Notes: generated from the sequence alone by a model not told the origin. A stretch of 64,000 bases of DNA from Desulfopila sp. IMCC35008 (GCF_010646885.2 NZ_CP050700.1:4924501-4988500), one strand, 5' to 3'; shown: positions 4,688 through 64,000, numbered from the stretch's first letter. Numbers and translations: made by a program.

Positions 4688-4762
4688 AATTTGATACACA
4701 TCGCCTTGGAACTACGCTTTCCGAGGTGCAAGGATAGACATATCTGAACGTTGTATCATAAT

Positions 4763-4781
4763 GAGACACGACACGTGTCTC
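4763..4781. promoter_or_regulatory. Inverted repeat, candidate upstream activating sequence
   Basis: GAGACACGACACGTGTCTC has perfect 8-base arms around a 3-base spacer. It sits about 165-180 bases upstream of the sigma-54 promoter at 4944, a usual distance for an enhancer-type activator. The likely binder is the AcoR-type protein encoded at 12293-14206. Confidence 0.55.
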
Positions 4782-4943
4782 TTAGTATTACAAATTGAAA
4801 TTCCTGAGAAACAATCCTATCAAAACATCTTCCCCTGCTGTCAGGAGATGTAGACTTTTTTGCATTTCCAACGTGCACTTACGCATTATACCTTTTCTCA
4901 CTCCCCCTAGTCCCAACAACAAAACGACAGAGAAATCATCAAA

Positions 4944-4959
4944 TGGCACGATTGTAGCT
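4944..4959 (+). promoter_or_regulatory. Sigma-54 promoter of the dehydrogenase/TRAP operon
   Basis: TGGCACGATTGTAGCT matches the -24/-12 consensus TGGCACNNNNNTTGCW at all key positions but one; GG and GC are exactly ten bases apart. Transcription would start near 4970, about 65 bases before the first gene. The palindromes upstream and the sigma-54 activator gene at the end of the operon support it. Confidence 0.7.
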
Positions 4960-5035
4960 AGGAATTTCCACGATACTATAACCGATTGAGTACTCCTCAG
5001 AAGAGGCGCCGCTCGATCTAAACGGAGATGAGCGT

Positions 5036-28385: not shown

Positions 28386-30386
28386 TCAATTAGGTCGTTC
28401 AACCTTGCGGCCGCGTCGTGGCAGTCGCTTTATTACGTCTGGTGTGCCAGGAGTAACAGCAGATGACACTGCAGCTTTTTTCTCGACCTGTTTCAGGGCC
28501 AGGGTCAGATCGCAGGTCATTGTCGGTGGATTACTCGCTGCCACAAGACTCATAAACAGTTCCCCTTCCTTGAACAGCAGCCGGTGCTTCTGCAAAGCCT
28601 CGAGGGCCGCCGTTATCCCGGAACCAAATTCGACGATGAGCTTTTCACATCCGGCCTGTTGCTCAAGCCGCCTGAGCAGAACAGCCTCTTCCGCACGTAA
28701 CACAATTGTGCGTCCAGCATCAAAGCGCGAATCAAAGACCTGCTGCTCGTCGAGAAAATGGAGCTTTGGCCGCTCCTTGTTCTCCGGCGCGTACCAGCTG
28801 TTGAGCCAGGCCGTAACCTTCTCTCTCAACTGCTGCAGCCAACGACTCAACTGCAGGGCGTATTCGGCCCGGCTGTTGTGGTCAGCAAAGAAATAGGCCA
28901 ATTGAGACAGGCTCTCCTCATCAAAAGGATACGTTAATCCATAAAAATCGTAAGGATGCAGATCTAGTTGATACTCAACGGCCTGCTTGAAGTAGAGGCT
29001 AAATCTGTCGAACCGGATCGGGTAGGCCCCGGTCGGTGGCGGCAGGTGATGCAGCGTGGGGATATCCTCCAGATATTTCAGATATACCTCCTCGTCAGTA
29101 TCGGGCAGTCCAACCAGCAGGTTCCAGAATGGATAGACATCGCTGAGCAGGCAGTTTTTAAGAAAACGCAGATTGCCGAATGCACTGGTCCCTTTCCGCA
29201 TCAATTTGAGCAGTGGCGTTGACAGAGCCTCAATGCCCGGTTGGACGAACTTGGTCCCCGCCCGCGAGAGCACTCTCAGTTCCTCCAGCGATAGATCAGA
29301 TTTGGTTTCGTAAAAAAGCAGTGCACCACCGGGGGCTTCGAGATGGGGAAAAAGTTCCTTCAGATAGACCCGGGGAACGATATTGTCAACACCATCGAAA
29401 CGCCTGCAGCGATCACCATAACGGTCGAACAGGACAGCAAACTGTTCCCGGGCCCGCTCCGGGCTCATGTGACGGTACCTGAGGGAGGCCCCATTCACCC
29501 CGCAAAAACTGCACTGACAGCGCTCCCCCCAACTGCAGCCGGTGGAAGTCTGGAACAGCAGAGTGGGCTCGAGGGTGGTCGTACCGTAATGTCGGTCAAA
29601 GGCCTCAAGGAAATCATCATAATCGAGATCAACAAGATGCTCAAAATCACGCTCCGGACCACGTTCAACCGGTTCACCTGTCTTGTTCTGTGCAGACCGC
29701 GGATTCACAGAACTGAAAACTCCTTCAAGCTGCTGACAGGATTCTGGCTGCCCTTCAATCAGGTGGCCGACCAACCTGGGAAAATTTTCCAGGGCCGGCC
29801 CACCGAAAACGAAATCGATCGCCTCAACATTGCGGGCGATGGCATCACCCATTGGATACTCACAGTTCGGACCGCCCATGACCGTTATAATGTTTGCCTT
29901 GCGCTCCTTGAGCATTCGAGCCATGGCAAAAGATGACACATTCTGACTGAACAAAGAGGTAAAACCTACAAGATCAGCCTCAGCTAAATGATAACGGTCG
30001 ATCAGTTCGTCCAGAAAGGACGAGAGCTGGAGCCTCTTCTCCCGAATAGTCCGACGAATCTGCGCCGATTGAGCATCACCACCGTTATGATAACGCCGGA
30101 AATAATCATCGCTATTGTCCTCCAGCCAAGGGAATGCCGCCTGGCGAAAGAACCAGTCCCCCAATCCTGAAACCAGCCCTTCCATACCAAGGATGAACTG
30201 GTATGCCTCATGACCACCGAGAAAGTGGATGAAGTCGTAATTGAGATAGACAATTTCCACCTGTACCTGCGTACCGTGGACATCCCGGAGGACGGTCTTC
30301 AGCTGGGTCAGAGCCAGGGAGGGGACATCCGGGGCGGCGAAAGGCATATTAAGCAGACGAATGACGCAGGTTCGTTTATTCGACAT
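28386..30386 (-). CDS. B12-binding radical SAM protein, RiPP-maturation C-methyltransferase type
   Basis: About 666 residues from the ATG at 30386, which overlaps the upstream NRPS stop by 11 bases; a GTG at 30437 with AAAGAGAG upstream would add 17 residues. The N-terminal B12-binding-like domain (about 1-230) has VIRLLNMPFAAPDVPSLAL, VGFTSLFSQNVSSFAMARML and VMGGPNCE. The radical SAM domain (about 290-500) carries a non-standard C-x7-C-x2-C motif, GCSWGERCQCSFCGVNG. PGIEALSTPLLKLMRKG and WNLLVGLP follow. These match, from memory, the RiPP maturation radical SAM C-methyltransferase family (TIGR03975, rSAM_ocin_1). I see no precursor peptide here. Sitting between NRPS genes, it probably methylates carbon on the nonribosomal peptide or a precursor. 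Confidence 0.88.
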   Translation of the reverse strand: MSNKRTCVIRLLNMPFAAPDVPSLALTQLKTVLRDVHGTQVQVEIVYLNYDFIHFLGGHEAYQFILGMEGLVSGLGDWFFRQAAFPWLEDNSDDYFRRYHNGGDAQSAQIRRTIREKRLQLSSFLDELIDRYHLAEADLVGFTSLFSQNVSSFAMARMLKERKANIITVMGGPNCEYPMGDAIARNVEAIDFVFGGPALENFPRLVGHLIEGQPESCQQLEGVFSSVNPRSAQNKTGEPVERGPERDFEHLVDLDYDDFLEAFDRHYGTTTLEPTLLFQTSTGCSWGERCQCSFCGVNGASLRYRHMSPERAREQFAVLFDRYGDRCRRFDGVDNIVPRVYLKELFPHLEAPGGALLFYETKSDLSLEELRVLSRAGTKFVQPGIEALSTPLLKLMRKGTSAFGNLRFLKNCLLSDVYPFWNLLVGLPDTDEEVYLKYLEDIPTLHHLPPPTGAYPIRFDRFSLYFKQAVEYQLDLHPYDFYGLTYPFDEESLSQLAYFFADHNSRAEYALQLSRWLQQLREKVTAWLNSWYAPENKERPKLHFLDEQQVFDSRFDAGRTIVLRAEEAVLLRRLEQQAGCEKLIVEFGSGITAALEALQKHRLLFKEGELFMSLVAASNPPTMTCDLTLALKQVEKKAAVSSAVTPGTPDVIKRLPRRGRKVERPN

Positions 30387-33300
30387 AGGGTTTTCGTTCC
30401 AATATGGATTGTTTTGTTGTTGGTCGTTGACCGACACGCTCTCTTTTCTTTAGTTGCGGCGTGTTGAGACTGGTTAGAGACTGCGAATTCTGGTTAACTA
30501 AAGCTGCCAGACCGGCTGGCGTCGGAGCAGTAAAAAGCCACCGCAAGGGGATCTCTTTTTCTAAATGACGGCGGAGGCGGGCAAACAGCCGGGTGGCCGA
30601 GAGAGAATGTCCACCCAGAGTGAAAAAATTATCATCTCTTCTTACTTGTTCTACGTCAAGCAGCTCCGCCATCAACCGGGCAATAAGCATCTCGGTAGTA
30701 TCCTCGGTGAAAGACTCGCCTGCTGATTGCTCTTGTGGTATCAAGGATATTGCCTCCAGCTCGGACAGTTGTCGACGCAGGAGCTTGCCGTTTATGCCAC
30801 GCGGCAGCTTTTCAACAAGCATGAAACGACCAACCCTCATGTAGTCAGGAAGATATTTTGCCAAGATCAGCTGTACATGTTCAAGCCGTGGCGTTGGGGT
30901 GACCTCCAGATAGGCGGTCAGGGCCGGCTCTCCTGAAGAATCGGGCTGTACAGTTACACCTGCGCTACTGATCTCCGGCAGCTTTTCCAAAACAGCCTCA
31001 ATCTCTTCCAGCTCGATCCTGTAACCGCGCAGCTTGACCTGCTGATCACTGCGGCCAGAGAAGAGGATACTGCCGTCATCAAGGAACCGGCCAAGATCAC
31101 CCGTTCGGTAGAGTCGCCCCTCGGCAAAGGGGGTAGACACAAATTTTTGGTTTGTCAATTCAGGTTGATTGAGGTAACCAGGGGACAAACAGGCGCCGCC
31201 GACATGGATTTCCCCGATACTGCCGAGAGGGACCTCATCACCGTGACCGTCAAGGAGACGAACCGTGACATTACTGACGGGTCTTCCAATGTCAACCCGT
31301 GCAGCCCCAGGCTCAACTTTGCAGCAGGTGGCATTTATGCAGGCCTCGGTAGGGCCATAAAGGTTATAGAGTTCCACTTCAATAGTCTGATGCAGGTGTG
31401 CGGCCAGCTCAGCTGTCAGAACTTCGCCACCGCAGAGAATTCGGCGCAGACTGCTGCATTCGCCAAGACGCCCATCCTCCAGCAACATTTTCAAAAGAGT
31501 CGGCACCAGGCGCAACTGAGTGACCTGGTGACGCCTGATCATAGCTAACAAATAATCCGGTCGTCGTTGACCGTCCGGCTCAGCAATCACCAGGCGAGCC
31601 CCGCTGGTCAGGGTGGCAAACAGCTCCCAGAGAGAAGGATCAAACCCCAGCGGAGTCTTGAAAAGAATCACATCATCTGGTTCGAGAAGGAGCTGCTGTT
31701 CCGCCCAACGAAGATAATTGCAGATCATCCCGTGAGTAATCACTACTCCTTTGGGCCGACCGGTAGAACCTGAGGTGTAGAGCACACAGACCGGGTCCTC
31801 CGATCGACAGGGGGCCTCACACACCTCTGCCGGATCAGGTTCCTGTTGCGCCTTTTCCATAATCAACAGCGGTATTTTTTCACTGTCTACGAATTCCACA
31901 GCAGTCTGCTCCAACTCGGCCTGGCTCAGCACCGCATCCACCTTCGCTTCACTGATCATGACCTGCAACCGTTGCTGTGGCAGTTGCGGATCGAGGGGGA
32001 GATAGGCTGCACCACTCTTGAGAATGGCCAGCACGCCGATAACCTGTGCCGGACTGCGCTCCAGGTACAAGCCGACAACATGTCCACGTCTGACCCCTTT
32101 GGCCCGCAGATAGCTGGCTGCAACCCGCACTCGCCGCCCCATTTCGTCATAGGTCATGGCTCCCGTGTCCCAGGTCAGGGCAGGCCGTTGGGAGTAGCAT
32201 TGCCCGGCACGACCGAGCAAGTGGAGAAGATTTTCAGGCCGTTGCGATGGCTCCACTGTTTTGTTGAAGGTGCGCAACAGCTGACGTGCGGAAGCGGTCT
32301 CAAGGGGAAGTTTGCTGATCATCCTTTGTGCATCATCAGCCACCCCTTGAAGGAACACAAGGAAACGCTCACACCAGCGAGCCATGGTAGACTTAAAAAA
32401 GAGATCGGTACGATACTTCAGTTCACCCTCCACTCCATGATCACCTTCACTGAGAAAGAGAACTATATCGAACTTGACGGCCTGATATTCCTGTTCGAGA
32501 CTTGCAATCTGTAAACCTGTAAACTCCGGCTGACGCAGCTCTACATTCTGATAGGAGAGCATCACCTGAAAAATTGGGCTGTGGGACGGATTCCGTTCCG
32601 GCCGTAACTGTTCCACCAGGAGCTCAAAAGGAAGATCCTGGTGGGCATAGGCCTCAAGGGCAGTCTCCTTCACCTGCTGCAGCAAGGTTATAAAGTCCTG
32701 GTTGCTGCCGAGATTGATTCGCAGAGGCAATGTATTTATGAAAAAACCGATCAGGCCTTCCAGGGCCTGTTGGTCACGCCCAGCCACAGGTGTACCAATA
32801 ACCACATCCTGCTGACCACTGATCCGACCAAGGAGCACAGCGAAGGCTGCAAGATACAGCATGAATGGTGTTGCCCCGGCCGATTTGATTACTGTCTGCA
32901 GTTGCCGGTGTAAGGTGAGAGGGATGTGAAATCGTTCAACCCCTCCTTCATATTCAGGTTCCGGTGGCCGCGGCAGGTCAGTGGGCAGTTCCAGACAGGG
33001 AGGAATTGATTCGAGCTGTCCTTTCCAGTAGCCCACGAGCTGCTCCAGCCGCATCCCCTGGAGTTGTTCATGCTGCCAGATGGCGAAATCGGCATACTGT
33101 ATCGGAAGAGGAGCCATATCCGGAGGCTGATCGACAATAAGACCGTTATAGAAAAGAGCCAGTTCATTGATCAGCACTCCCATGGACCAGAGGTCGGAGA
33201 TGATGTGATGCATGGTCAGCAGGAGCAGATGGTGACATGGGCCAAGGTGAATCAGGCTCGTTCGCAGGAGCGGTCCCTGGGCAAGATCAAAGGCCTGCGC

Positions 33301-50189: not shown

Positions 50190-51144
50190 GAACCTTCTCC
50201 CAGTGCTGAATGAAGTAGATATCAATTCCCTTTTCCATGTCGCAAAAGGCACGGGAACCTTCCAGACCGAGAAAATCGCTCATCATCTCCTGGTCATTGG
50301 CCTGCGGAAATGCGCCCAGGTGAACGTCTCCTGTCGCCCGACAGGAGAGCAGGACATTAGCAGTAATATCCCTGTCAAGCATGAGCTGCAAGCCCAGATC
50401 CCTCAGAAATGCGGTGCTGCGTGATTTCTTCTCCCGGGGCAGAATATCGCTGTAGAGGAAACGGCCGCCAGGCCGTAGAACGCGTGCGACCTCACGGTAA
50501 AAGCTATCGATCTCCGGATAATTATGAGACGACTCCAGATTGGTCAAACAGTCAAAACTGCGATTCGGAAACGGCAGGTGTTCGGCATCTCCAACCAGAA
50601 AATGGGCTTGATCCGCAGGTGCATTGTCACGGCAAAAGGTAATCGCCTCGCGACAAAGGTCGATGCCCGTCAAGCGTTCAGGTTGAAAAAGGTTTGCCAG
50701 GGTATCAATGGTACCGCCTCGACCACAGCCCACATCAAGCAGCTCCACGCCCTCCAGCGGGGATCCTCCGACCATCTCCAGCACCAGATTGACGCAAGCC
50801 CTGTTGATGACCCGTTCAGGCAATTCAACCACCCGCTCAGTCGGTGAGCCGTCATCCAGAAAACCGATATTGAGGAACCGGGCATGTTGTCTATAAAGGC
50901 TGCTGTTAAGCTGCCGACTGATAGTGGTGTAAAACTGCTGTGTCTTCTCTTTGACCTCTATTGCTGCAGGTACCTTATCCTGCAGCAGCTGCGCTTTACT
51001 GATCACGTCTTGCGCCGGTTCAGCGGCGGATGAAACATCAGCCAACTCTGTCGGCACCTGCTGCCCGGCCTTGCGCAACGCTGCTTCCAGAACCTGACGT
51101 TGTCTTGGGGAGAGTTTCGAGAGTCGTTGCTGTAGGATATTCAT
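50179..51144 (-). CDS. Discrete SAM-dependent methyltransferase
   Basis: 321 residues from the ATG at 51144, whose first base overlaps the PKS stop (TGATG) behind GAGG; a TTG one codon earlier is possible. The class I methyltransferase domain lies at about 120-270: motif I VELLDVGCGRGGTID, then LTGIDLC, VGDAEHLPFPNRSFD and VARVLRPGGRFLYSDI. The N-terminal ~30 residues (LSKLSPRQRQVLEAALRK) look like the helix at the N-terminus of NRPS proteins that follow PKS modules, and may dock on the PKS tail. It could O- or C-methylate the beta-hydroxy ketide unit made just before it. Target inferred from position only. Confidence 0.88.
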   Translation of the reverse strand: MNILQQRLSKLSPRQRQVLEAALRKAGQQVPTELADVSSAAEPAQDVISKAQLLQDKVPAAIEVKEKTQQFYTTISRQLNSSLYRQHARFLNIGFLDDGSPTERVVELPERVINRACVNLVLEMVGGSPLEGVELLDVGCGRGGTIDTLANLFQPERLTGIDLCREAITFCRDNAPADQAHFLVGDAEHLPFPNRSFDCLTNLESSHNYPEIDSFYREVARVLRPGGRFLYSDILPREKKSRSTAFLRDLGLQLMLDRDITANVLLSCRATGDVHLGAFPQANDQEMMSDFLGLEGSRAFCDMEKGIDIYFIQHWEKVHGR

Positions 51145-54100
51145 CAAAAGTCCTCTTTGCCGTCCAGGATCGCCTGCAGGTCCTCCTCGGACATCTCTTC
51201 TACCTTATCGAGCATCCGTGAAAGCTTATCCAGTTCCCCTTCCGCTTCAACCATTGCCTGGCAGAGTTTCTGAGACAGAGTTTCAACAGTCGGTTCCTCG
51301 AACAGGATATGGACAGGAAGGGTGGTGTGGAAACGATCATTGAGCTGCGCTACGACCTGGATGGCCAGCAGCGAGTGGCCGCCTAGATCGAAAAAATCGT
51401 CATGACGGCCAATCTCAGCAAGTCCGAGAATATCCTGCCAGACCTGCGTTACCACCTCTTCCACCTCCCCCGAAGGCATACTGTAAGCAACGTCAAGAGC
51501 GGGACGCTGGTGACGGGCCGGTGAGCTGGCAGTACCAGGGGCGTTAAGAACTGAAGAGAGCCTGGCCTCTTTCAGCCGCATACCAAGATCCCGTGTAGAG
51601 ACAAGAACCTGCCCTTTCGGTAATGCGGTCAGCAGTCGTTCAAGTGCGTCCATACCTTCCTGAGGTCGAATCAGAAAATCTACCGACTCATTTGTATCGT
51701 CGGCCCAGCCATCCCAATTTATAGTAAGCCAGGGTATATCCGACCTCAGGTTCTGTTCATGAACCAAAGCGTCAAGAGCAAGATTGGCCGCACTATAGCT
51801 TGCAAAGCCGACACCACCCAGCAACGCGGAAAGCGAGGAAAAAAGAATGCAGCAACCAACCCGACGCCCCTGCACCGCCTCAGCCAGCGCAGCCACCCCA
51901 TCGACTTTGGCTTGAAAGTGACCTTCCAGCAGCTTTTCGGTGCATTCAGCCAGGGGTGCCAGAGACCCGCTGCCGGTCACACCAGCCAGGTAAAAGATGG
52001 CATCAAGGCCTTCAAACTGCTCCTCGGCATGTGCCAGGGCATTTTCGAGGGCCGGCCCGTCGGTGACATCAACCTCAACAATCTCAAGCACCGCCGCCTT
52101 TTCGCGAATCCGTTGCAGTCGTGACTGCTGGGACGAGGAAATGTTTTCTACTGAACGACTGAGCAGGACCAGTTTCGCTTCCCGGGTCACTGCAAGATGT
52201 TCAGCCAGATGCAGGCCAAGACGGCCCAACCCACCAATCAGGAGATAACTGCCACCCTTTTTGCTGGTCGTTCCCCCAGCGGCGGCAGGCAGGGAAAGCG
52301 ACTGATATGACTCCATCCAGGGGTGTCCTCCGCGCAGGGCTATACTACAGGTGACATCCTGGCGCCTCAATTCCCGCGCCAGCAGTTCTGCCGACTCCGC
52401 AACAGCAGCCGTAGTCTCCAGATCGATGCTACGGCAACGGATTGCCGGAATTTCCTGGGGAATCACCCGAATTGCGGCCAATAAGGGGACTGAAGCAGGA
52501 TCGAGGTGTTCATTTCCGCTAACATCGTGAAGCCCGCTCCCTACCGCAACCAGAGAGACAGTTGGATTGAGCAGTGGCTGACAGGCCGTCGCCAGGTACA
52601 GCAGACTGGAAAAAGTCAAAGATCGATGCTGCCGTGACAGCTCCTGCCCGGTGAGATCGGGAGGCGGGGCAATGGACCAGAGGTGGACCATCCTTTGCAA
52701 TTGAGGCCACGCTGCCCCCAAATGCGAAAAAAGGCGAACATAATCATGTGGTTCATCCGGCCGGATACCATAGGTATTCGGCCCATCCACCTGAAACTTT
52801 TCCGCAGCACTGACCCGGAAGACCTGATTACCATTCTGGCGCAGCTCATCTACCAGAGCCTTGACCAGGGGGGTCTGTTCCCCAAACAGAAGCCAGGGCT
52901 TATCATCACCTGCCCCGGCAGGCAATACACATCGTTTCCAGGTCGGCAGCGTAAACCAGTCCTGCAGTGATAAACGGGTGGTCGGCAACATCTCAGGCAC
53001 GACCTGTGACAATGGTTCAAACCAGTAGCGTTGCCTGGAAAAAGGGTAGGCAGGCAGGGGAATACGTTGATGCTGTTGACCATCACCAAAACGTTGCCAG
53101 TCAACATAGACACCAGAACACCAGAGTTTTCCGAGGGAAGCCAGTATCCCGGACACAACCTGATCCTTCTTTATAGCAGGTACAACGCTGACAACCTCCT
53201 TTTCACCCTGCAGGTGCCAAAGCTCGCTGACCTCCTTTTCTGAAAAAGAGCCGAACAGTACCACAATCTCCCCTGGTATTACAGTATCTGTAACCGGCAA
53301 CTCATTATCAACTCTGAGGGGGTGTAAAACCGCCTCAACCGCCAAAGCCATCCCCTCTTCAAGGCTCATCTCTTTTTTAAGGCAAGCCGCAACGGCCTGT
53401 CCGACTCCGACACCAACACAATCAACCGGTTCTATCCCCCAGTTGACCAGAAGACTGGCCAGGGAAAATTCCAGAAGGAAGAGAGCCTGTTGTTGCAAAT
53501 GCGCCAACGTTGTGCGGGTAAAAAGAACACTACGTAATTGTTCGCGTAACTCTTTCGGCAGCTGATCAAGACAGTTTTCTATCTCCTTTTGAAACTGTGG
53601 GAATTCCGCAGCGAGCAGCTGTCCCATCTCGGGAGATAAAACAGTCGTGCCCGATATAAGAAAAACCACCTCCGGCTGTCTGCCGTCACTGCTCACAGGC
53701 AGCACCGCAGACTCTCTATCTCCGGCCTCTTCGAGCTGGGCTATTGCGCCTACCCTGTCTGTGCAAACCAGGGCCCGGCGATATGAATAATGCTCTCTGC
53801 CAACCTGGAGGGTATAGGCAACGTCCGCCAGGTTGATGTTCTCCTCGTTTTTGAGGTGCCGTCCTAGGTTATCAACAGCCCTTCTGAGTTCCTCCTCTCC
53901 CGCTGCCGAAACAACAAGCAATTGAGGTGCGCTGTCTCTTCTGGTGGTTGATAACGGCGGAGCTTCTTCCAGCACGAGATGGGCATTGGTGCCACCGATA
54001 CCAAATGAACTGACTCCGGCCCGGCGAATCCCATTAATGCCCTGCCAATCCCTGAGATGGGTATTGACAAAAAATGGTCCTGCCTGCATATCGATATCAG

Positions 54101-55253
54101 GATTTGGCGTCTCAAAATGGAGACTGGGCGGAATTTCACCGTGGTGGAGTGCCAGAACAGTCTTGATCAAGCCGGCAATACCTGCTGCGGTATCGAGGTG
54201 ACCAAAATTACTTTTGACAGAACCGAGGGCACAATGTTTTTCATGTCCGCCGCTGCTTCGAAAGGCCCGCATCAGGGCCGCGATCTCAATCGTATCACCC
54301 AGAGGCGTTGCAGTACCATGGGTTTCCACATAGGAAATAGTGGTCGCATCGATATCTGCCATGGTCAGAGCCTCACGGATAACCGCGGTCTGACCGTCCA
54401 CCCCTGGTGCCATGTAGCCAACTTTGACTGCACCGTCATTGTTGACAGCCGAGCCCTTGATCACCGCATAAACACTGTCACGATCTGCAAGGGCATCGTC
54501 GAGCCGTTTCAATACAACCAGTCCTGCACCGCTGCCACCGATAGTTCCCTGGGCACGTGCATCAAAAGGCCTGCAGTGACCATCCGGGGAAAAGATCATT
54601 CCATCCTGATGGAGATACCCCATGGTCTGCGGTACACTTATTGACACCCCGCCGGCCAGGGCCACATCGCACTCACCGCCGAGCAGTGCCTGGCAAGCCA
54701 GATGGACCGCCACAAGAGAGGTGGAACAACCGGTCTGCACATTGATTGCCGGTCCGGTGAGATCAAGTTTATAGGCAACCTTGCTGGCGAGAAAATCTTT
54801 GTCATTGAGACTGACCGCCTGGTAATAGGCCAGAGGACCGAGACGCTCACGATCTGGGATGATGCAGTGGAGCATGTAGGTACTTGACGAACAGCCTCCG
54901 TACACCCCGACAACTCCCTCGACCTGACGAGGTCCGTATCCCGCATATTCCAGAGCCGTATAAGCAGTCTCAAGAAAGAACCGCTGCTGGGGATCCATCA
55001 GCTCCGCCTCGGTGGCGGTATATCCGAAAAAACCGGCATCGAACAGGTCAATACCATCCAAAACCGAACCGGCCGCGACATAGCCTGGCTTTGACGAGAG
55101 TTTGGGATCAACCCCGGCTTCGAGTAGCTCATCAGGAGTGAAACGCCGGATAGACTCCACGCCGTTGCGCAGGTTGCGCCAGTAGTCATCCACCGAAGCG
55201 GCACCGGGGAAGCGACACTGCATTCCGATAATTGCGATATCCGTCTCTGCCAT
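51144..55253 (-). CDS. Type I PKS module: KS-AT(degenerate)-KR-ACP
   Basis: 1,369 residues. The ketosynthase (1-430) is intact: Cys in TGCSTSLVAVH (~174), His in ETHGTATPLGD and SNFGHLDTAAG. The acyltransferase region (about 528-700) is shortened, and its GHSxGE site reads GVGVGQ, so catalytic Ser and preceding His are lost. The ketoreductase (structural part ~760-1000, catalytic ~1000-1190) has GGLGRLG and FASYSAANLAL with Tyr and Asn, so a beta-hydroxyl is expected. The carrier domain has LGGHSLLAIQ (~1294). The C-terminal acidic helix (EEMSEEDLQAILDG) is a likely docking segment. The malonyl unit must come from another AT. AGGACA precedes the ATG. Confidence 0.94.
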   Translation of the reverse strand: MAETDIAIIGMQCRFPGAASVDDYWRNLRNGVESIRRFTPDELLEAGVDPKLSSKPGYVAAGSVLDGIDLFDAGFFGYTATEAELMDPQQRFFLETAYTALEYAGYGPRQVEGVVGVYGGCSSSTYMLHCIIPDRERLGPLAYYQAVSLNDKDFLASKVAYKLDLTGPAINVQTGCSTSLVAVHLACQALLGGECDVALAGGVSISVPQTMGYLHQDGMIFSPDGHCRPFDARAQGTIGGSGAGLVVLKRLDDALADRDSVYAVIKGSAVNNDGAVKVGYMAPGVDGQTAVIREALTMADIDATTISYVETHGTATPLGDTIEIAALMRAFRSSGGHEKHCALGSVKSNFGHLDTAAGIAGLIKTVLALHHGEIPPSLHFETPNPDIDMQAGPFFVNTHLRDWQGINGIRRAGVSSFGIGGTNAHLVLEEAPPLSTTRRDSAPQLLVVSAAGEEELRRAVDNLGRHLKNEENINLADVAYTLQVGREHYSYRRALVCTDRVGAIAQLEEAGDRESAVLPVSSDGRQPEVVFLISGTTVLSPEMGQLLAAEFPQFQKEIENCLDQLPKELREQLRSVLFTRTTLAHLQQQALFLLEFSLASLLVNWGIEPVDCVGVGVGQAVAACLKKEMSLEEGMALAVEAVLHPLRVDNELPVTDTVIPGEIVVLFGSFSEKEVSELWHLQGEKEVVSVVPAIKKDQVVSGILASLGKLWCSGVYVDWQRFGDGQQHQRIPLPAYPFSRQRYWFEPLSQVVPEMLPTTRLSLQDWFTLPTWKRCVLPAGAGDDKPWLLFGEQTPLVKALVDELRQNGNQVFRVSAAEKFQVDGPNTYGIRPDEPHDYVRLFSHLGAAWPQLQRMVHLWSIAPPPDLTGQELSRQHRSLTFSSLLYLATACQPLLNPTVSLVAVGSGLHDVSGNEHLDPASVPLLAAIRVIPQEIPAIRCRSIDLETTAAVAESAELLARELRRQDVTCSIALRGGHPWMESYQSLSLPAAAGGTTSKKGGSYLLIGGLGRLGLHLAEHLAVTREAKLVLLSRSVENISSSQQSRLQRIREKAAVLEIVEVDVTDGPALENALAHAEEQFEGLDAIFYLAGVTGSGSLAPLAECTEKLLEGHFQAKVDGVAALAEAVQGRRVGCCILFSSLSALLGGVGFASYSAANLALDALVHEQNLRSDIPWLTINWDGWADDTNESVDFLIRPQEGMDALERLLTALPKGQVLVSTRDLGMRLKEARLSSVLNAPGTASSPARHQRPALDVAYSMPSGEVEEVVTQVWQDILGLAEIGRHDDFFDLGGHSLLAIQVVAQLNDRFHTTLPVHILFEEPTVETLSQKLCQAMVEAEGELDKLSRMLDKVEEMSEEDLQAILDGKEDF

Positions 55254-55388: not shown

Positions 55389-58300
55389 TTAATTCCTGTT
55401 CTTGTTCATGTTTCTCCGCATCAGGCGCTGCCGTGCCAAAGTCCTGCTTCGTTCAGTGCGACGCTCGGCCCGCTTTTCCCCCTCATCTTCGGCTTCGTTG
55501 TTTTCCCCTGCTCCTTCCAATTGTAGAGCCAGGCGCGCAATGGTCGGAGCCCGGAACATGTCGACCATCGAAACAGGACGGTTTAAAAGAGTTTGCAGTT
55601 TTTTGTTGAGTTGCACCATCAGGATCGAGTTGCCGCCCAGTTCAAAAAAATTATCATGGATGGAAACCTGCTCCACAGCCAGGAGTTCTTGCCATAGACT
55701 GCCTATACGCTGCTCCAGCAGAGTGCGCGGTGCGACCCTGTTCGCTGGCGCTCGAGAGGTACCGCCCGGTGCTGGCAAACGACTGCGATCGACCTTGCCG
55801 TTTGCGGTGAGAGGAAATTGTTCCAGGATAACAAAGGCTGCAGGAAGCATATACTCCGGCAGAACCTGTCTGAGTATCCCCTGGAGCTCATCTTTTATTG
55901 CCTCAGCCTGCTCCTCCAGCAAGAGATAGGCAACCAGGTGCTTGTCCAGGTTTGAGCCGGTCGAAACCACCAGGGCGTCCTTGATTTCCGGAAGATTGCG
56001 GAGATGGCTTTCGACCTCGCCGGGCTCAATACGATAACCGCTGATTTTTACCTGATGGTCGATCCTGCCCAGGAACTCAATTCGACCATCCGGCAGGTAA
56101 CGGCATAAATCGCCGGTACGATAGAGCCGTCCGCCACCCCCTTCAGTTGCAAAGGGATCGGCAACAAAACAGTCCGCGGTCAAACCCGGATTTCCGAGAT
56201 AACCTTGAGCCAGACCATCGCCACCGATATAGAGTTCACCAGCCGTACCGACCGCAACAAGCTGTCGATCGGGATTAAGTATATAAGCCCTGCTGTTGGC
56301 AACCGGTCGACCGATCGGTATGGTCCGCAGACCCGGTTCTACGGCCCTCATTGGATAGCAGCAGCTAAAAGTAGTGCCCTCGGTTGGGCCATAGCCGTTG
56401 ATCAACACCAGTTCAGGGCAGGACTGCAGTAATCGAGTGACGTGGCCGGGCGAGAGGATATCTCCACCAGCCAGGAGCTGCCGCACACCGGCAAAATCAG
56501 CCACCTGCTCGTCGACCATCAAATGAAACAAACCGGCGGTGAGCCAGAGGGTCGTGATCCGCTTTTCACGGATAACCCGGCCTAACTCCGGCAGCGACGG
56601 AACACCTGCAGCCATGACCTCCAAGCTGCAGCCATTAAGCAGTGCTCCCCAGATCTCGAAGGTGGAAGCATCAAAAGAGAGCGGTGCAAATTGCAACATT
56701 CGCTCCTGAGGACCGAGATCGACATAATTACTGTTGCGCACCAGCCGAATCACCGCCCGCTGGTCCACCACCACTCCTTTGGGGCTGCCGGTGGAACCAG
56801 AGGTATACATTATATAGGCCGGGTCAGCGGCCCTGTTTACCAATGGTGGGTTTGCAGCAGATTCTCCCTCAAGTACCGAACTGAGCTGATCGAGCAGCAT
56901 TACCTGGCGAACACCTTCACCCAGGGTACAACGCCGCCTAAGCCTTTCTTTACGCGGCAGGAAGGCCAATCCGGTTATCTCCTTCAGCTGTTCATCTTCC
57001 CAGGGGGTACCGTTATTGGACAGCGATGTGGCAATAATATCTCGCATAATCAGTTCCCCTTCACCCAATACCACCAGGTCAAGATTCACATCGGAGAGCA
57101 GGGTGGCAAACTCACTTGTTGCATAAGGTCCGCCCGTCACGATCTGGGCCTCGGGACACCATGCTCGCAGAAGAGATACGGTCTCATGGAAGAAATGGCG
57201 ATAAAGGGAAAGGGTGCGGATACCAATGATCTGCGGACGAAAATCGACGACCTCCTTTTCCAGCGCCGCAAAGGAGTCGAAATCGACCATGGCCTTGCGA
57301 ATGCGGCCATCCAGTCTTTCGCCGAATTCACGATTGAGATAGGTGAGCAGGGATATCAACCCCAAAGGAGCCTCAACCAGTTCATTAAGCTGATAATTAC
57401 TATCGCTGAAGAGCTGAGATAGATCCAGGAGCAAGAGACGCAGGGGTTCCTTCGCTTGCCTCGTTTTGGGAGCTGACTTCCTGGGATTCACCTCCACTTC
57501 CTGGCGTATCGCGGTCATCGGTTCCGGCCTTGACGGCGGCTCTGCCTTGATGAGCTGCAGCACCTCTGGATAATCCTCGAGCTTGCCAGGGAGATAGGTG
57601 GCGTATTTAGCCATGATCTCCTCATGTGAAAGCACCTTTTTCTGAGCTGGAATCACCGCCTGCAACCGTTCTTCGGACAAGAAATAGTCGTTGAGATAAC
57701 GGTTCTGGAACTCACGGGCAAAAGCTGCTGAAAAAGGCATCGTCTCTCCTGGGTCGTGATAGGAGAGATAGGCGGAGCGCTCAATGGCCTCACGGCTGAC
57801 CCCGTGGGCAATTGCCAGTTCTGCCATATCGGTATTGGGGAAAATCTTCAGGGCATTAAGTGTCGGGAAATGTAACCAGTGAACGTTTCTAATAAAATCC
57901 AGCGTCTGCTCCACCTCAGCCTCGGTCTCGGTCGGGAAGCCGAACATGGTAAAAAGGTCGAGAATGATCTGGGGGTGATGAGAGGTGATATGGCTTATAG
58001 TAGCCTGTAACCGGTCAATGTTGAGGTTCTTTCCGATCAGCTTCTGCAACCGTGGAGAAGCCGTTTCCAAGGCCAGGGCCATCTGTATTACCCCGGCCTC
58101 AGCCATCAAATCAATCTGCTCGGCGTTTAGCAGATCACCTTTCAGGCCGTTGGGGAAAAGAATCCGCAACTTCAGGTTATGCTGGAGCACCAGCTCGAAA
58201 AAACGGCTGCTGTTTCGACGATCGAGGTTGAAAATGTCGTCGATAAAGCTGAAGGTATCATACCCCTTGTCATAATGCTGCCGCACTTCGGCAAAAATGT

Positions 58301-61300
58301 TCTCGGCTGAACGGATATGATGCACTTTGGGCCAGATTTTATGGCAATAACGGCACTTGAAGGGGCAGCCACGAGTGGCATAGATACTAATGTTGCGACG
58401 AACACAGGCCTCACCGATATATTGGTCGTATTTGTGGTAATCGACCAGAGAACGATCAGGATAGGGTAGACTGTCCAGATCCTTGATCGGTTCCCTCCTG
58501 CCGGTCTGGATCAGTTCGTCATCGAGCAGCTGCAGTTGTTGCAGGGTCGTAAAAGGCTGCATTTTAAGAATGGGGCTGCAACTGATAACCAAACCTGCCC
58601 CACTGTCCTGCAGGAGGCGTCGAACCCGTTCCTGTGGCCATTGCGGGTCAAGAGGAAGATAACAGCCTCCGGCTTTGACCGTCGCCAACATTGCCGTCAC
58701 AATTTCCGGGGAGCGTTCATCAAGAAGAGCCACCACTGTACCCCGCTGCACACCATGACGCCTCAGCAGATGGCTGAGTCTGTTGACACGGGAATTGAGT
58801 TCACCATAGCTCAGTTCCTGCCCGGCAAATGAAAGGGCCAGCCGGTGAGGTGCCACAGCGGCGTGTTCTTCGAATAGTTGCTGCAGGGATGCATTTCTTG
58901 GGTAATCGCTCGCTGTGGCGTTCCAGTCTATCAGCAGCTGCTCACGCTCCCTGTCTGAAAGGGGGCTGAAGAAACTGTGATCATCGTCCGGGGTCAGAGC
59001 CATTGCCTCTAACGCCCTGCTGTAGTAACCGGCAATAGCCCGAACCTGATCAACAGCCAACTCGAGACCATTATAATCTAGGTCAAGGCTGATCTGGCCG
59101 GAGACAGGGTCAAGACCGAAGTCAACACCGAGAACGAAATTGGTTTGCTCGAAGAATTGTTCATCCAGGACCTGGATACTATCGTCAAGAGCCAGCAGTT
59201 TTTCGTAAACATGAAAATGAGTGAAGTTAAAGGCACTTTCAAAAAGCGTTCGCCCATTGAAACTTCGCTGGATTTCTGTCAGCGGATACCGGCGATAGGG
59301 CATACTCTCCTGTTCGATAACGTGCACCCTATGTGCCAGGGTTCGCCAGCTCTCTGAGGTCAGATGAACACGAAACGGCAGGGTGTTGAGGAACAGCCCG
59401 AGAACCCGGTCCCCCTCCTCTTCGGCCAGACGACCGTTTTGGACCAGTCCGGTAACCACGTCCTCCTGGTTGCAGAGAAAGCCCATAACACGTATATGGG
59501 CAGCCAGCAGCAGGCTCTTGAGTGGCAGTCCTTCCTGCCTGGCCAGGGAGCGCAGTTGTTCAGAGACCACAGCGGAGATATCGACCGGTTCTATGCCAAG
59601 ACGCTCCACTCGTACTTCGCCCTCGTCCTGCAAAGGAAAGCCAGGCCAGCGGGGCAGGCCGACAAAACTCATGTCGGCGAGAGTCTTCCGCCAGAACCGG
59701 GCAGAAGCAGTATCGACCGTGGCCTGCTGTTCTGCGGCAATAAAGTCCCGGAACAGGAGTCGAGGCGCGGGTTGCAGGACAATCGTTCTTCCCATGTCAG
59801 CCAGATAGTGGCAGAACAGTTCGGTAAGCAAAGCGGCGACACTCCACCCGTCAAGGATAGCATGATGGAAACTGAGGCTCAGGCTGCAGCGGTTTTCTCC
59901 CCGAAGGTGAAGACAAAAGCGCAGAAGCGGGGGGCGGGACCAATCAAAACCATTGCCTTTTTCTGTGGCAATCCATTGACGTACTGCTTCATCTTGCTCC
60001 GTTTGGGTGATGTTGCGCAGATCGATAATATCTAAAATTGATTCAACATGTCGATGAACCAGCTGAAGCGGTCTGCGAAAACGGCTCAGCTCGAATCCGG
60101 TCCGCAACACCGGATGGGACTGGACCAAAGTTGATATAACCCTCCGTATTCGTGATACATCAAGTGGGAAACGAAGATGCAGGCTGAAGATATCGTGATA
60201 GACAGGTGAATCAGGGCTGAATTCGCTATGGAACAGCATTCCACCCTGCAGGGAGCTCAGAGGATAGGCATCCTCCACCTCGTCGGTCAACTGCGCCCGC
60301 TCCTTTTCATCTAAAAGAGCAAAGGCGTGGGAGGCCTGCCGGGAGACCAGCTCTTCTTTCCCGACCAGTCGACAGGCAAGCTGAGCGATGGTCGGCCAAT
60401 GAAAAACATCCCTGATCTCTGCGGCCAGATCAAGCTGCTTGCGAATAGCACCAACCAGGCGTAAAACCTTGATGGAATCTCCGCCAAGAGCAAAATAATT
60501 GTCGTGGATACCGACCACCTCCCGGCCAAGGAGGTCCTGCCAGAGGATGACCAACTGGCCCTCCAGGGGGGTGCGCGCAGCCTGATAGATGCCGTTATCG
60601 GCTATCAGCGTACCCTCTCCTGCCTGCGGATCAGGCAGAGCCCTGCGATCAAGCTTATTATTGACGGTCAGCGGAAGCTCTGCCAGCCGGACAAAATAGG
60701 CCGGCAGCATGTACTCGGCCAGCCGGCCGCGAAGATGGCGGCGCAGAGGCTCGAGTTCCACCATTTGCTCCATTACCAGATAGGCAATGAGATGTTGTTC
60801 ACCCTCATCATTGTTACGGGCAACCACTGCTGCCTCACTCACCGCCGGATGATCCAGCAGGGCCGCCTCTATCTCTCCTGGCTCGATGCGATAACCACGC
60901 ACCTGCACCTGCTGATCGTTGCGGCCAAGATATTCCAAAGTACCATCCAGCCGGTACCTTCCCAGGTCGCCGGTCCGATAGAGCCGCTCCCCATTGACAA
61001 AGGGGCTGACCAGAAAGTGTTCAGCAGTGAGTTCTGCCTTCTCGTGATACCCCAGGCAGACGCCGTCACCGCCGACATAGAGCTCACCTGTAACTCCGGC
61101 CGGTACAGGGTGGCCCGCATCGTCACAGATATACACCGTGACCGTAGGCAAGGGGGAGCCGATGGGACTGCTGCCGTCGGCCTCGAAGATATCAGCCTTT
61201 TGCAGCGGGTACCAGGTCACATGGACCGTGGTCTCACTGATGCCGTACATGTTAATCAGTTGGACCTGCTCCAGAGGGAAACGGCGAACCCAGCCCTTCA

Positions 61301-64000
61301 GAGTAGCAGGCTCGAGCCGATCACCCCCGAATATCACCAGACGCAGGGCCCGGAGCTCAGCCCGATTATCCTCGGCCACCCGGCTGAGGTTGGAAAAACT
61401 GCCGGGAGTCTGGTTGAGAATAGATACCTGGTGGCGGTCCAGCAGCGCCAGGAACCGCTCGGTATCACGGACTTCTTCCACGTCCGGAACGACCAGGCGA
61501 CCACCGCGGAGCAGGGCCCCGAATAGTTCCCAGACCGAGAAATCAAAACAGGCCGAATGTGCCATCACCCAAACGTCTTCAGAATCGAAATCAAAGGGAA
61601 ATGCATCATTGAAGAGCAGCCGGACCACGTTGCTGTGACTGACCACGCAGCCCTTCGGCCTGCCGGTGGAACCGGAGGTGTAAATGATATAGGCGGGCGA
61701 GTGGGGGAGAATGCTCCGGGCTTTTTGTGCCGCCCCGCAACCAGGCAGCTCAGCTGGATCGATCTGGATCATGCTCTCTACTACGGGCAGGGCCTGGTCA
61801 CTCAGTAGCAGACGACAGCCGCTGTCCTGTAACATGAACAGCTGACGCTGCTCGGGATAGCGAGGATCAACGGGGACATAACAGCCCCCTGCCTTGAGAA
61901 CACCCAAGATAGCAGCAATAAGCTGAATCGAAGGATGCAGACAGACCCCCACCGCTTCACCCGGTGCCAGTCCCTGCTGCTGCAGCCCGCTGCAGATCCT
62001 CGCCGCCAGCTCATCGAGCTCACGGTAACTGCACTGCTCCTCACCTCTGACCAGAGCGATTGCCTCAGGAGTGCGACAGGCCTGCCGGTCGAATAAACTC
62101 ACCAGAGTGGCCGATTGCGGCCACTGGCTTGGTGCGGGATTGCAGCCGACAGTCAGCTCTTCTCGCTCACGGTCATCAAGAATAAGATGTGGATCCAGAC
62201 AGCGTTCCGGATTCTCTGTGAGATGCTTCAATATGCTGCGGAACCAGTTAACAAGTGATTCCAACTGGTATGTACTGTAAATCCCGGCAGCTGCGGCAAT
62301 TCGTATTCGGGTCACAGAGCCGGTTCGGCTGATGGTGAAGACCATGCCGGTGTCGGTGTTCTCAAACCCCTCTTCCACCAGCGGATTCCGCAACTCGATC
62401 AAATCATCCAGACCGGCGGCAACATGAAAATCAACATAGTTGAAAAGGATATCAAAGAGCCGCTGTTCAGAGCCACCGGCCCCAACAAGACTGCTGATCT
62501 CACTTAATGGGAAACGATCATGAAGACGGATCTCAACAAGCTGATCACGCAGTTTATGGACAAGGTGCTGACCGCTCAAGTCGTTACGGAGGTGGATCCG
62601 GAGTGGTACACTGTTCAGGAAACAACCGAGTATTTCGTCACTCTTCTCGATTTCCGGCCGATTATGGCTCACCAAACCAAATAACAGATCGGAGCGATTG
62701 GTGGTAAAACGCAGTAAGGCGGTAAATGCAGCAAGAAAAAGAGGCTGCTCTCCAGTCTGCAGGACCATACCTGCTTTTGCTACCTGCCTGGTAAGTTGCC
62801 GATCAAGATCGACCTGATATTCTGTAACTCCCCGGTTGCTTCTCCTGTTTGCTGATCGTTGCAGCGGGAGCGGCGTAAGCTCCCAGTCACGCAGGGTCTG
62901 CTGCCAGAAACTCACATGACCAGGCCAGTCTTTGTGGGCCATCTGCTCTGTGACAAAATCCCGGTAACTGCCTGCAAGCGGGCTTGGACGAAAATCAGGA
63001 TTCCGACCTAAAGCCGAAGTAGTACGCAGCAACTCATTAAGCATGGCAGCATTGGACCAACCATCGAGAATCGCATGATGGAATGACCAGAGCAAACCAT
63101 ACTCCTGATCACCGAGAGAATACAGACTGAACCGCCATAATCCAGGTCTCGCCGGGTCAAAAGGGGCTGCCAGATCATCCTTCTGCTTCATGCGGAGGTG
63201 CTGCCGTTGCTCCTCCCTTTCAGAGAACTGCAAATCCTCATAAGTCAGATAGTCAGCGATAGGTTTATCCAGGCGGCGATGAACGAGTTGAAGCGGCTCG
63301 TCAAAACCAGCCAGGGCAAATCCGGTGCGCAAAATTGAATGACGTTCAACCAGCAGTTCGAGGGCCCTGGCGAAACGTATCGGATCAAAATCGTGACTGA
63401 CGAACTGGATATAGAACTGGTCATGATACACCCCCTGCCCGGCGGCAAGAGCATGATAGATCATGCCGAGCTGGATGTCGCTCATCGGATAGAGATCCTC
63501 TACACCATCTAAAGGAATCGTCTGATCTTCCTTGAGTTGTAAATGCTTCCGCATTTTTTCCAGCTGCTGATAGACCGGTGCCAGATCTGGCCCGTCTGTC
63601 AGTAGCTGGTCCGCTTCAAGAAAACCTGCGAGCTGGGCCACAGTTGGGTAGCGGAAAAGAGCGGCAAGCGGCAAACGCCGGCCCAATGTACGCGCCATAT
63701 TGTCGGCCAGGCGTAAAACCTTGATGGAATCTCCGCCAAGAGCAAAATAATTGTCGTGGATACCGACCACCTCCCGACCAAGGAGATCCTGCCAGAGGAT
63801 GACCAACTGGCCCTCCAGGGGGGTGCGCGCAGCCTGATAGATGCCGTTATCGGTTATCAGCGTGCCCTCTCCTGCCTGCGGATCAGGCAGAGCCCTGCGA
63901 TCAAGCTTATTATTGGCGGTCAGCGGAAGCTCTGCCAGCCGGACAAAATAGGCCGGCAGCATGTACTCGGCCAGCCGGCCCCGAAGATGGCGGCGCAGAG
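55389..64000 (-). CDS. NRPS (partial, open at right edge): ...A-PCP-C-A(Thr)-PCP-C-A(Val, split by radical SAM-B12)-PCP
   Basis: At least 2,869 residues; no true start in the window. Residues are numbered here from the internal Met at 63962. End of an A domain, then PCP (LGGDSI, ~78). C ~155-590, HHAILDG. A ~620-1105, code DFWNIGMVH, Thr. PCP ~1161. C ~1237-1680, HHAILDG. The last A domain starts ~1694, breaks off after a2 (~1795) and resumes at a3 (TSGSTGSPKG, ~2385). The gap holds a radical SAM domain (CPFKCRYC ~1867) and a B12-binding domain (~2174-2334). Its code after the insert is DAFWLGGTF, Val. PCP (LGGNSI, ~2775). An Arg-rich tail (~2815-2857) meets the PKS. Both C domains open like D-accepting or dual types (YPxSxxQxGM), yet no E domain is visible before them. 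Confidence 0.95.
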   Translation of the reverse strand, partial: LRRHLRGRLAEYMLPAYFVRLAELPLTANNKLDRRALPDPQAGEGTLITDNGIYQAARTPLEGQLVILWQDLLGREVVGIHDNYFALGGDSIKVLRLADNMARTLGRRLPLAALFRYPTVAQLAGFLEADQLLTDGPDLAPVYQQLEKMRKHLQLKEDQTIPLDGVEDLYPMSDIQLGMIYHALAAGQGVYHDQFYIQFVSHDFDPIRFARALELLVERHSILRTGFALAGFDEPLQLVHRRLDKPIADYLTYEDLQFSEREEQRQHLRMKQKDDLAAPFDPARPGLWRFSLYSLGDQEYGLLWSFHHAILDGWSNAAMLNELLRTTSALGRNPDFRPSPLAGSYRDFVTEQMAHKDWPGHVSFWQQTLRDWELTPLPLQRSANRRSNRGVTEYQVDLDRQLTRQVAKAGMVLQTGEQPLFLAAFTALLRFTTNRSDLLFGLVSHNRPEIEKSDEILGCFLNSVPLRIHLRNDLSGQHLVHKLRDQLVEIRLHDRFPLSEISSLVGAGGSEQRLFDILFNYVDFHVAAGLDDLIELRNPLVEEGFENTDTGMVFTISRTGSVTRIRIAAAAGIYSTYQLESLVNWFRSILKHLTENPERCLDPHLILDDREREELTVGCNPAPSQWPQSATLVSLFDRQACRTPEAIALVRGEEQCSYRELDELAARICSGLQQQGLAPGEAVGVCLHPSIQLIAAILGVLKAGGCYVPVDPRYPEQRQLFMLQDSGCRLLLSDQALPVVESMIQIDPAELPGCGAAQKARSILPHSPAYIIYTSGSTGRPKGCVVSHSNVVRLLFNDAFPFDFDSEDVWVMAHSACFDFSVWELFGALLRGGRLVVPDVEEVRDTERFLALLDRHQVSILNQTPGSFSNLSRVAEDNRAELRALRLVIFGGDRLEPATLKGWVRRFPLEQVQLINMYGISETTVHVTWYPLQKADIFEADGSSPIGSPLPTVTVYICDDAGHPVPAGVTGELYVGGDGVCLGYHEKAELTAEHFLVSPFVNGERLYRTGDLGRYRLDGTLEYLGRNDQQVQVRGYRIEPGEIEAALLDHPAVSEAAVVARNNDEGEQHLIAYLVMEQMVELEPLRRHLRGRLAEYMLPAYFVRLAELPLTVNNKLDRRALPDPQAGEGTLIADNGIYQAARTPLEGQLVILWQDLLGREVVGIHDNYFALGGDSIKVLRLVGAIRKQLDLAAEIRDVFHWPTIAQLACRLVGKEELVSRQASHAFALLDEKERAQLTDEVEDAYPLSSLQGGMLFHSEFSPDSPVYHDIFSLHLRFPLDVSRIRRVISTLVQSHPVLRTGFELSRFRRPLQLVHRHVESILDIIDLRNITQTEQDEAVRQWIATEKGNGFDWSRPPLLRFCLHLRGENRCSLSLSFHHAILDGWSVAALLTELFCHYLADMGRTIVLQPAPRLLFRDFIAAEQQATVDTASARFWRKTLADMSFVGLPRWPGFPLQDEGEVRVERLGIEPVDISAVVSEQLRSLARQEGLPLKSLLLAAHIRVMGFLCNQEDVVTGLVQNGRLAEEEGDRVLGLFLNTLPFRVHLTSESWRTLAHRVHVIEQESMPYRRYPLTEIQRSFNGRTLFESAFNFTHFHVYEKLLALDDSIQVLDEQFFEQTNFVLGVDFGLDPVSGQISLDLDYNGLELAVDQVRAIAGYYSRALEAMALTPDDDHSFFSPLSDREREQLLIDWNATASDYPRNASLQQLFEEHAAVAPHRLALSFAGQELSYGELNSRVNRLSHLLRRHGVQRGTVVALLDERSPEIVTAMLATVKAGGCYLPLDPQWPQERVRRLLQDSGAGLVISCSPILKMQPFTTLQQLQLLDDELIQTGRREPIKDLDSLPYPDRSLVDYHKYDQYIGEACVRRNISIYATRGCPFKCRYCHKIWPKVHHIRSAENIFAEVRQHYDKGYDTFSFIDDIFNLDRRNSSRFFELVLQHNLKLRILFPNGLKGDLLNAEQIDLMAEAGVIQMALALETASPRLQKLIGKNLNIDRLQATISHITSHHPQIILDLFTMFGFPTETEAEVEQTLDFIRNVHWLHFPTLNALKIFPNTDMAELAIAHGVSREAIERSAYLSYHDPGETMPFSAAFAREFQNRYLNDYFLSEERLQAVIPAQKKVLSHEEIMAKYATYLPGKLEDYPEVLQLIKAEPPSRPEPMTAIRQEVEVNPRKSAPKTRQAKEPLRLLLLDLSQLFSDSNYQLNELVEAPLGLISLLTYLNREFGERLDGRIRKAMVDFDSFAALEKEVVDFRPQIIGIRTLSLYRHFFHETVSLLRAWCPEAQIVTGGPYATSEFATLLSDVNLDLVVLGEGELIMRDIIATSLSNNGTPWEDEQLKEITGLAFLPRKERLRRRCTLGEGVRQVMLLDQLSSVLEGESAANPPLVNRAADPAYIMYTSGSTGSPKGVVVDQRAVIRLVRNSNYVDLGPQERMLQFAPLSFDASTFEIWGALLNGCSLEVMAAGVPSLPELGRVIREKRITTLWLTAGLFHLMVDEQVADFAGVRQLLAGGDILSPGHVTRLLQSCPELVLINGYGPTEGTTFSCCYPMRAVEPGLRTIPIGRPVANSRAYILNPDRQLVAVGTAGELYIGGDGLAQGYLGNPGLTADCFVADPFATEGGGGRLYRTGDLCRYLPDGRIEFLGRIDHQVKISGYRIEPGEVESHLRNLPEIKDALVVSTGSNLDKHLVAYLLLEEQAEAIKDELQGILRQVLPEYMLPAAFVILEQFPLTANGKVDRSRLPAPGGTSRAPANRVAPRTLLEQRIGSLWQELLAVEQVSIHDNFFELGGNSILMVQLNKKLQTLLNRPVSMVDMFRAPTIARLALQLEGAGENNEAEDEGEKRAERRTERSRTLARQRLMRRNMNKNRN
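56935..58575 (-). other. Radical SAM plus B12-binding insert within an A domain
   Basis: Domain-level annotation. About 545 residues lie between the A-domain strand GAGLVIS (after a2) and GVRQVMLLDQ (before a3). Order: linker IKDLDSLPYPDRSLVD; radical SAM core with RGCPFKCRYC (C-x3-C-x2-C), FIDDIFNLD and ALETASPRLQKLIGK; C-terminal helices to ~57470; then a B12-binding domain with LLLLDLSQLF, QIIGIRTLSLY, VTGGPYATSEFATLL and VVLGEGE, ending EITGLAFLPRK. In ordinary B12 radical SAM proteins the B12 domain comes first and GLAF... runs into the DLDSLPYPDR linker. Here the order is reversed, a circular permutation. Confidence 0.9.
60455..60748 (-). repeat. Direct repeat of A-domain end/PCP, copy 1
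   Basis: 294 bases that match 63707-64000 with about seven differences (offset 3,252). They encode the last part of the A domain (LAEYMLPAYFVRLAELPLT) through the PCP serine region of two consecutive modules. Confidence 0.9.
63707..64000 (-). repeat. Direct repeat of A-domain end/PCP, copy 2 (reaches window edge)
   Basis: Partner of 60455-60748. Still matching at the last base of the window, so the repeat probably extends into the upstream A domain. Confidence 0.9.

Follow-up and report, generated by a model that had tools for sequence, protein, structure and literature searches.

The window analysed here, a stretch of 64,000 nucleotides from Desulfopila sp. IMCC35008, carries part of a nonribosomal peptide synthetase (NRPS) whose 6957-aa frame runs without a stop; the host genome is a complete single contig of 6.3 Mb. 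The last of the six modules has an adenylation (A) domain that is split by a radical SAM (rSAM) domain and a B12-binding domain. The features of this module, together with one further protein of the same cluster, are given below in window coordinates.

55389..63962, continuing to 76262 outside the window, minus strand: NRPS open frame (6957 aa, six C-A-PCP modules), from sequence and domain matches
58932..60284, minus strand: C domain of the interrupted module, HHAILDG intact
58572..58874, minus strand: N-terminal part of the A domain, motifs a1-a2, ending just past a2
56907..58547, minus strand: the insert, a circularly permuted rSAM-B12 domain of 547 aa between a2 and a3
57543..58547, minus strand: radical SAM domain of the insert, opening with the PIKDLDSLPYPDRSL linker
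58344..58367, minus strand: CPFKCRYC, the CX3CX2C 4Fe-4S motif
56913..57467, minus strand: B12-binding domain of the insert, GGPYAT and VLGEGE motifs conserved
55794..56873, minus strand: C-terminal part of the A domain, a3-a10, Val-type code DAFWLGGTF(K)
55515..55700, minus strand: PCP of the interrupted module, GGNS serine present
28386..30437, minus strand: B12 rSAM protein encoded on its own in this cluster, separate from the insert (TIGR03975, 449 bits versus a cut-off of 282)

The first-pass annotation had described a single frame running from a1-a2 through rSAM and B12 domains and back into a3-a10 and a PCP, and the motifs, the Pfam domains and the absence of a stop bore this out. It had placed the insert at 56935-58575; the location stands but the exact limits do not, and are better set at about 56907-58547 on the minus strand. 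Motifs a1-a10 are complete, yet split by a catalytic domain within one frame, which is the hallmark of an interrupted NRPS adenylation domain. Pfam found C, A and PCP domains beside Radical_SAM (PF04055, whole-protein 3.2e-18) and B12-binding (PF02310, whole-protein 3.2e-6). The PF02310 score of the window insert was 27.4 bits in one search, below the cut-off of 32.1, and 33.6 bits in another, above it; the relative L087 reached 47.6 bits. The ten-residue code of the window A domain, DAFWLGGTFK, is Val-type, in agreement with the valine proposed earlier for this module. All codes were read against a GrsA ruler. Directly downstream of the interrupted module lies a KS-KR-ACP polyketide module (51144-55253, minus strand) with no acyltransferase match, and upstream of the NRPS, outside the window at 76701-82506, are three genes that resemble an RND efflux trio (outer-membrane factor, pump and adaptor).

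With its CX3CX2C domain and B12-binding Rossmann domain, the insert would be placed by sequence among the class B (B12-dependent) radical SAM enzymes. In that class the B12 domain is N-terminal to the rSAM domain, whereas the order in the insert is reversed. The cluster cysteines are conserved in 58/59, 59/59 and 59/59 insert copies, and GGP and GEGE of the B12 domain are retained in all 59 aligned copies. Two further residues of the insert, Arg444 and His454, do not vary within the family and do not occur in the standalone relatives that were aligned. Standalone relatives were scored with separate family-derived profiles for the two halves of the insert, and B12 came first in every one in which both halves matched (in L067, for example, B12 at 57-183 and rSAM at 201-436), in contrast to the rSAM-then-B12 order of the insert. 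The NCBIfam alignments were concordant, with insert residues 9-219 falling on BchE 155-362 and residues 424-532 on KedN5 49-154. The DLDSLPYPDRSL linker, which forms the B12-to-rSAM joint of standalone enzymes, stands at the start of the insert, whose other end is that of the B12 domain. The permutation cut therefore lies at that linker; the old termini are connected by a variable linker of about 40 aa. A cut at this point would place both ends of the insert close together, and neighbouring termini would suit placement in a surface loop of a host domain. The permutation would thus have a structural reason, since loop insertion needs adjacent ends. No earlier B12 radical SAM enzyme seems to be known with a circular permutation.

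Structure prediction was consistent with such an arrangement. The AF2 model of the interrupted A domain (34-row alignment) had a pLDDT of 87.3 and a pTM of 0.87, and the sole stretch below 50 pLDDT was the rSAM-B12 linker. Foldseek matched this model to A domains, the match to 4d4i covering 1038 columns at TMt 0.91; the A fold is thus modelled as closed over the insert, the point that the first-pass annotation had proposed to settle by prediction. Modelled alone, the insert had a pLDDT of 89.2 and a pTM of 0.90. The A domain is therefore predicted to fold around an insert that is itself a compact unit. In the VIA/Foldseek match list, which was filled by rSAM matches and hardly probed the B12 half, the top match of the insert was AprD4 (Z 19.8; 275 residues at 3.0 A; model 11-296 aligned with chain 156-439), and the next B12 rSAM enzymes were MgmA (a Gln C-methylase), TsrM, OxsB, CysS and TokK, most of which are methylases. 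AprD4, a dehydratase, is the nearest solved relative by sequence and by fold. AprD4, MgmA, TsrM and OxsB share the rSAM fold with the insert but carry a B12 (or B12-like) domain before it and lie outside NRPSs. In NCBIfam the insert reached no family cut-off; the best score of any was ApyD at 103 bits (cut-off 750), and C-methyltransferase families were likewise below threshold (TIGR03975, 42.7 bits, cut-off 282; KedN5, 37.6 bits, cut-off 700). These weak matches were to methylases (PhpK, KedN5, MgmA) and non-methylases (BchE, AprD4, ApyD) alike.

The insert is not peculiar to the window. We found 64 distinct copies in ten genomes, and a scan of about 85,000 genomes with a single protein, based on six short peptide patterns and thus leaving room for spread beyond the groups found, returned nine loci at 44-55% identity whose open frames are NRPSs. 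The richest genome, the Aminicenantes MAG G259, holds 29 full-length copies by table count, and G260 and G261 hold 12 and 8; the automatic counts of 35 (G259) and 20 (G260) include fragments and one standalone each. Many relatives are MAGs; the copy numbers given are minimum values or could be affected by binning errors. A whole-genome profile search of 142 members of the class of G259 gave copies in seven. Among 297 genomes sampled phylum-wide around G259, the full insert was present in G259 only, and the other eight matches were standalone relatives that matched the rSAM part. Genome G258 has one copy and is the only carrier among 80 genomes in its phylum, while in the class of the window genome 2 of 258 genomes have the insert, namely the window genome and one genus-mate. 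Plasmid and phage collections yielded no full insert, only standalone enzymes or partial query matches. The rSAM-B12 inserts are a real family, previously undescribed as far as our literature search shows.

The search for rSAM and B12 domains between a2 and a3, suggested at the outset, placed 48 of the 64 copies at that site; at least seven lie between an A domain and its PCP, and nine, several of which are truncated at a contig end, are unclassified. L048, counted among the 48, lies behind an intact A domain as well. The displaced copies are of two kinds. In the first, C-A-[A N-half stub-rSAM-B12]-PCP, the insert is preceded by an N-terminal stub of an A domain (L064/L106, L041/L107, L058/L108 and L095). 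In the second, A-[rSAM-B12]-PCP, it follows the A domain directly (L025, L022 and L051), L022 having a degenerate A-like stretch before the insert. Copies behind an intact A domain, with or without the stub, suggest that the insert needs a nearby A domain or PCP and not a split A domain, and the stub-bearing copies suggest that insert and A N-half can move together. Consistent with this, similarity among inserts was tracked better by similarity of the A N-half (r 0.41-0.47) than by that of the A C-part (0.36-0.38), correlations to which whole-module inheritance also contributes. Judged from these arrangements in sequence, the insert is a mobile part, found inside an A domain or behind an intact one.

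Reviews of interrupted A domains describe methyltransferase, oxidase, ketoreductase/reductase and monooxygenase inserts only (PMC11355689, PMC8949500), and a search of the open-access literature (PMC) found no NRPS into which a radical SAM domain is built; subscription papers or preprints could describe one. Within this scope the earlier statement that no B12 rSAM enzyme is known inside an NRPS holds, and the proposed new class of interrupted A domain is supported by an intact B12 rSAM enzyme at a2-a3, a type of insert missing from those reviews. The circular permutation, the many relatives, the copies behind an intact A domain and the spread of A-domain codes are additions to the first-pass annotation. 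Interrupted A domains themselves are already known; the rSAM-B12 auxiliary enzyme and its permuted form are new as far as we found. The nearest architectural precedents, TioN and MarQ (PMC11355689), share the a2-a3 site and a cis-acting, SAM-using tailoring insert in the A domain. The domain inserted in these two is a SAM methyltransferase of the classical type that methylates sulfur, whereas the window insert is a 547-aa 4Fe-4S/B12 radical enzyme, with PF04055 and PF02310 in place of that methyltransferase. A domains interrupted at a8-a9 (N-/O-methyltransferase or Ox; TioS, KtzH, IndC) are likewise bifunctional and modify the loaded residue, but at another site, by other chemistry and without B12 or Fe-S. 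The closest functional precedent is DscE, a B12 rSAM C-methyltransferase that C-methylates Val in the nonribosomal peptide discodermin in trans (PMC12858407), which agrees with the earlier remark that B12 rSAM methylases are otherwise separate proteins. DscE is a protein of its own and works on the finished peptide in vitro (PMC12858407), whereas the insert is built into the NRPS.

We infer that the chemistry of the insert is C-alkylation, and we think it rather probable that the insert serves as an in-line (cis) B12 rSAM tailoring domain that alkylates the PCP-bound residue at carbon by radical chemistry, probably with a methyl group. Methylation of a PCP-bound residue is favoured because CysS and TokK, which are also B12 rSAM methylases but separate proteins with the normal B12-rSAM order, have been solved with pantetheine-bound substrates, so that carrier-bound substrates are feasible for such enzymes, and because DscE methylates a Val of a nonribosomal peptide. 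The A domain of the window module would activate Val and load the PCP, whose arm would then be brought to the insert. The 4Fe-4S cluster would cleave SAM to a 5'-deoxyadenosyl radical, which would abstract a side-chain hydrogen at an unactivated carbon; C-beta is the most likely site, with the enzymes of polytheonamide and bottromycin as guide. Methylcobalamin would supply the methyl and convert Val to tert-Leu prior to condensation. In other modules the insert would act on a loaded Thr, Ile, Leu, Pro-like, Asn-like or Glu-like residue. The standalone protein at 28386-30437, a RiPP-type C-methyltransferase of TIGR03975 with the normal B12-rSAM order, counts for the C-alkylation reading. It seems to be a second C-methylation enzyme, one that works in trans in the manner of DscE on discodermin, and may be the DscE analogue of this cluster.

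The codes of the host A domains bear on this proposal in both directions. They are those for Val, Thr, Ile, Leu, Pro-like, Asn-like and Glu-like residues, with some unassigned, a diversity that rules out a single substrate for all inserts. The insert tree required 18 changes of A code, compared to 34 in shuffles (minimum 29). An insert phylogeny that follows the code is what one would predict for a domain working on the loaded residue; the agreement could instead stem from whole-module duplication. The wide range of codes points to no single reaction and counts against the C-alkylation reading, as do the weak NCBIfam matches to methylases and non-methylases and a dehydratase as the nearest solved relative.

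The serious rival to C-methylation is an in-line B12 rSAM domain that catalyses some other radical reaction (dehydration, desaturation, ring formation or rearrangement) with no methyl added, which we consider unlikely on balance. The best match in sequence and fold is a diol dehydratase, AprD4, BchE and ApyD match no less well than methylases, and the inserts differ by up to about half their residues and could catalyse different reactions. Nevertheless, methylases of the MgmA, TsrM, CysS, TokK and PhpK types match about equally, and the hydrocarbon residues specified by Val, Ile, Leu and Pro codes offer little to dehydrate. Far less probable is a substitute for an epimerase or N-methyltransferase, where action at C-alpha or N would account for the absent side-chain preference. 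Such activities are already present in some of these modules: in L077 and L087 the PCP of the interrupted module is followed by an E-type domain (HHLVIDxVSWRIL), which makes epimerisation unlikely, and the A domain of L020 also has a SAM methyltransferase at a8-a9, which makes N-methylation unlikely; moreover, a B12 domain has no evident use in epimerisation. That the insert is a dead or structural relic of a decayed fusion is more improbable still. Frameshifts or a stop split a few copies (L094, L101), but catalytic residues are kept in 58-59 of 59 copies while the flanking A parts average 36-49% identity, and the insert has a confident predicted fold. An assembly or frameshift artefact, which has the MAG origin of many relatives in its favour and nothing further, has a negligible chance and is ruled out as far as these data go, because identical junctions recur in independent assemblies of ten genomes and the host genome is a single contig, so that neither a frameshift nor a misassembly explains the architecture.

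Modification of unactivated carbons in nonribosomal peptides is known from separate enzymes acting before or after assembly. If radical C-alkylation by the insert is true, cis modification at a named residue would be predictable from sequence, and the domain could perhaps be moved between modules; its occurrence inside and behind A domains, with the stub or lacking it, suggests that such moves have taken place in nature. We put at about even the chances of the broader proposal, in which the mobile permuted domain would be a per-module radical C-alkylation unit with which Aminicenantes writes C-methylation of many residues into its NRPS modules, a single genome holding as many as 29 full-length copies. 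The family marks Aminicenantes as a rich source of unexplored peptides, and the domain could be used to search for the origin of tert-Leu and other C-methylated residues.

Several other features were noted in the relatives. The intact A domains before the displaced inserts of L025, L022, L051, L064 and L058 share the code CVQY[IV]AHVVK, in which Cys replaces the amino-group-binding Asp235 and thus perhaps indicates an unusual substrate. L020 (aa 1520-1959) has a doubly interrupted A domain, with rSAM-B12 at a2-a3 and the SAM methyltransferase at a8-a9, and L106 (aa ~4760-5070) has an ordinary SAM methyltransferase at a2-a3 of a neighbouring module, as in TioN. A second unusual insert lies at a8-a9 of L091 (G259 C657; aa 1490-1824 of a 2010-aa frame) and is a relative of WbuX-like PP-loop amidotransferases (TIGR03573, 75.5 bits, under the cut-off). 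It occurs together with the rSAM-B12 insert in L091 and also, by their partial ends, in L059 and L104; L091 and L059 have the code DPWYIGT[IV]NR. The genus-mate of the window genome has a WbuX-like insert without rSAM-B12 (L065:5724-10064, aa 942-1265). Many Aminicenantes NRPS subunits (L021, L024, L050, L057, L060, L075 and others) start with the C-terminal half of a condensation domain, lacking HHxxxDG, and at several such loci the preceding subunit terminates in a full C domain; the half-C start may be a docking device.
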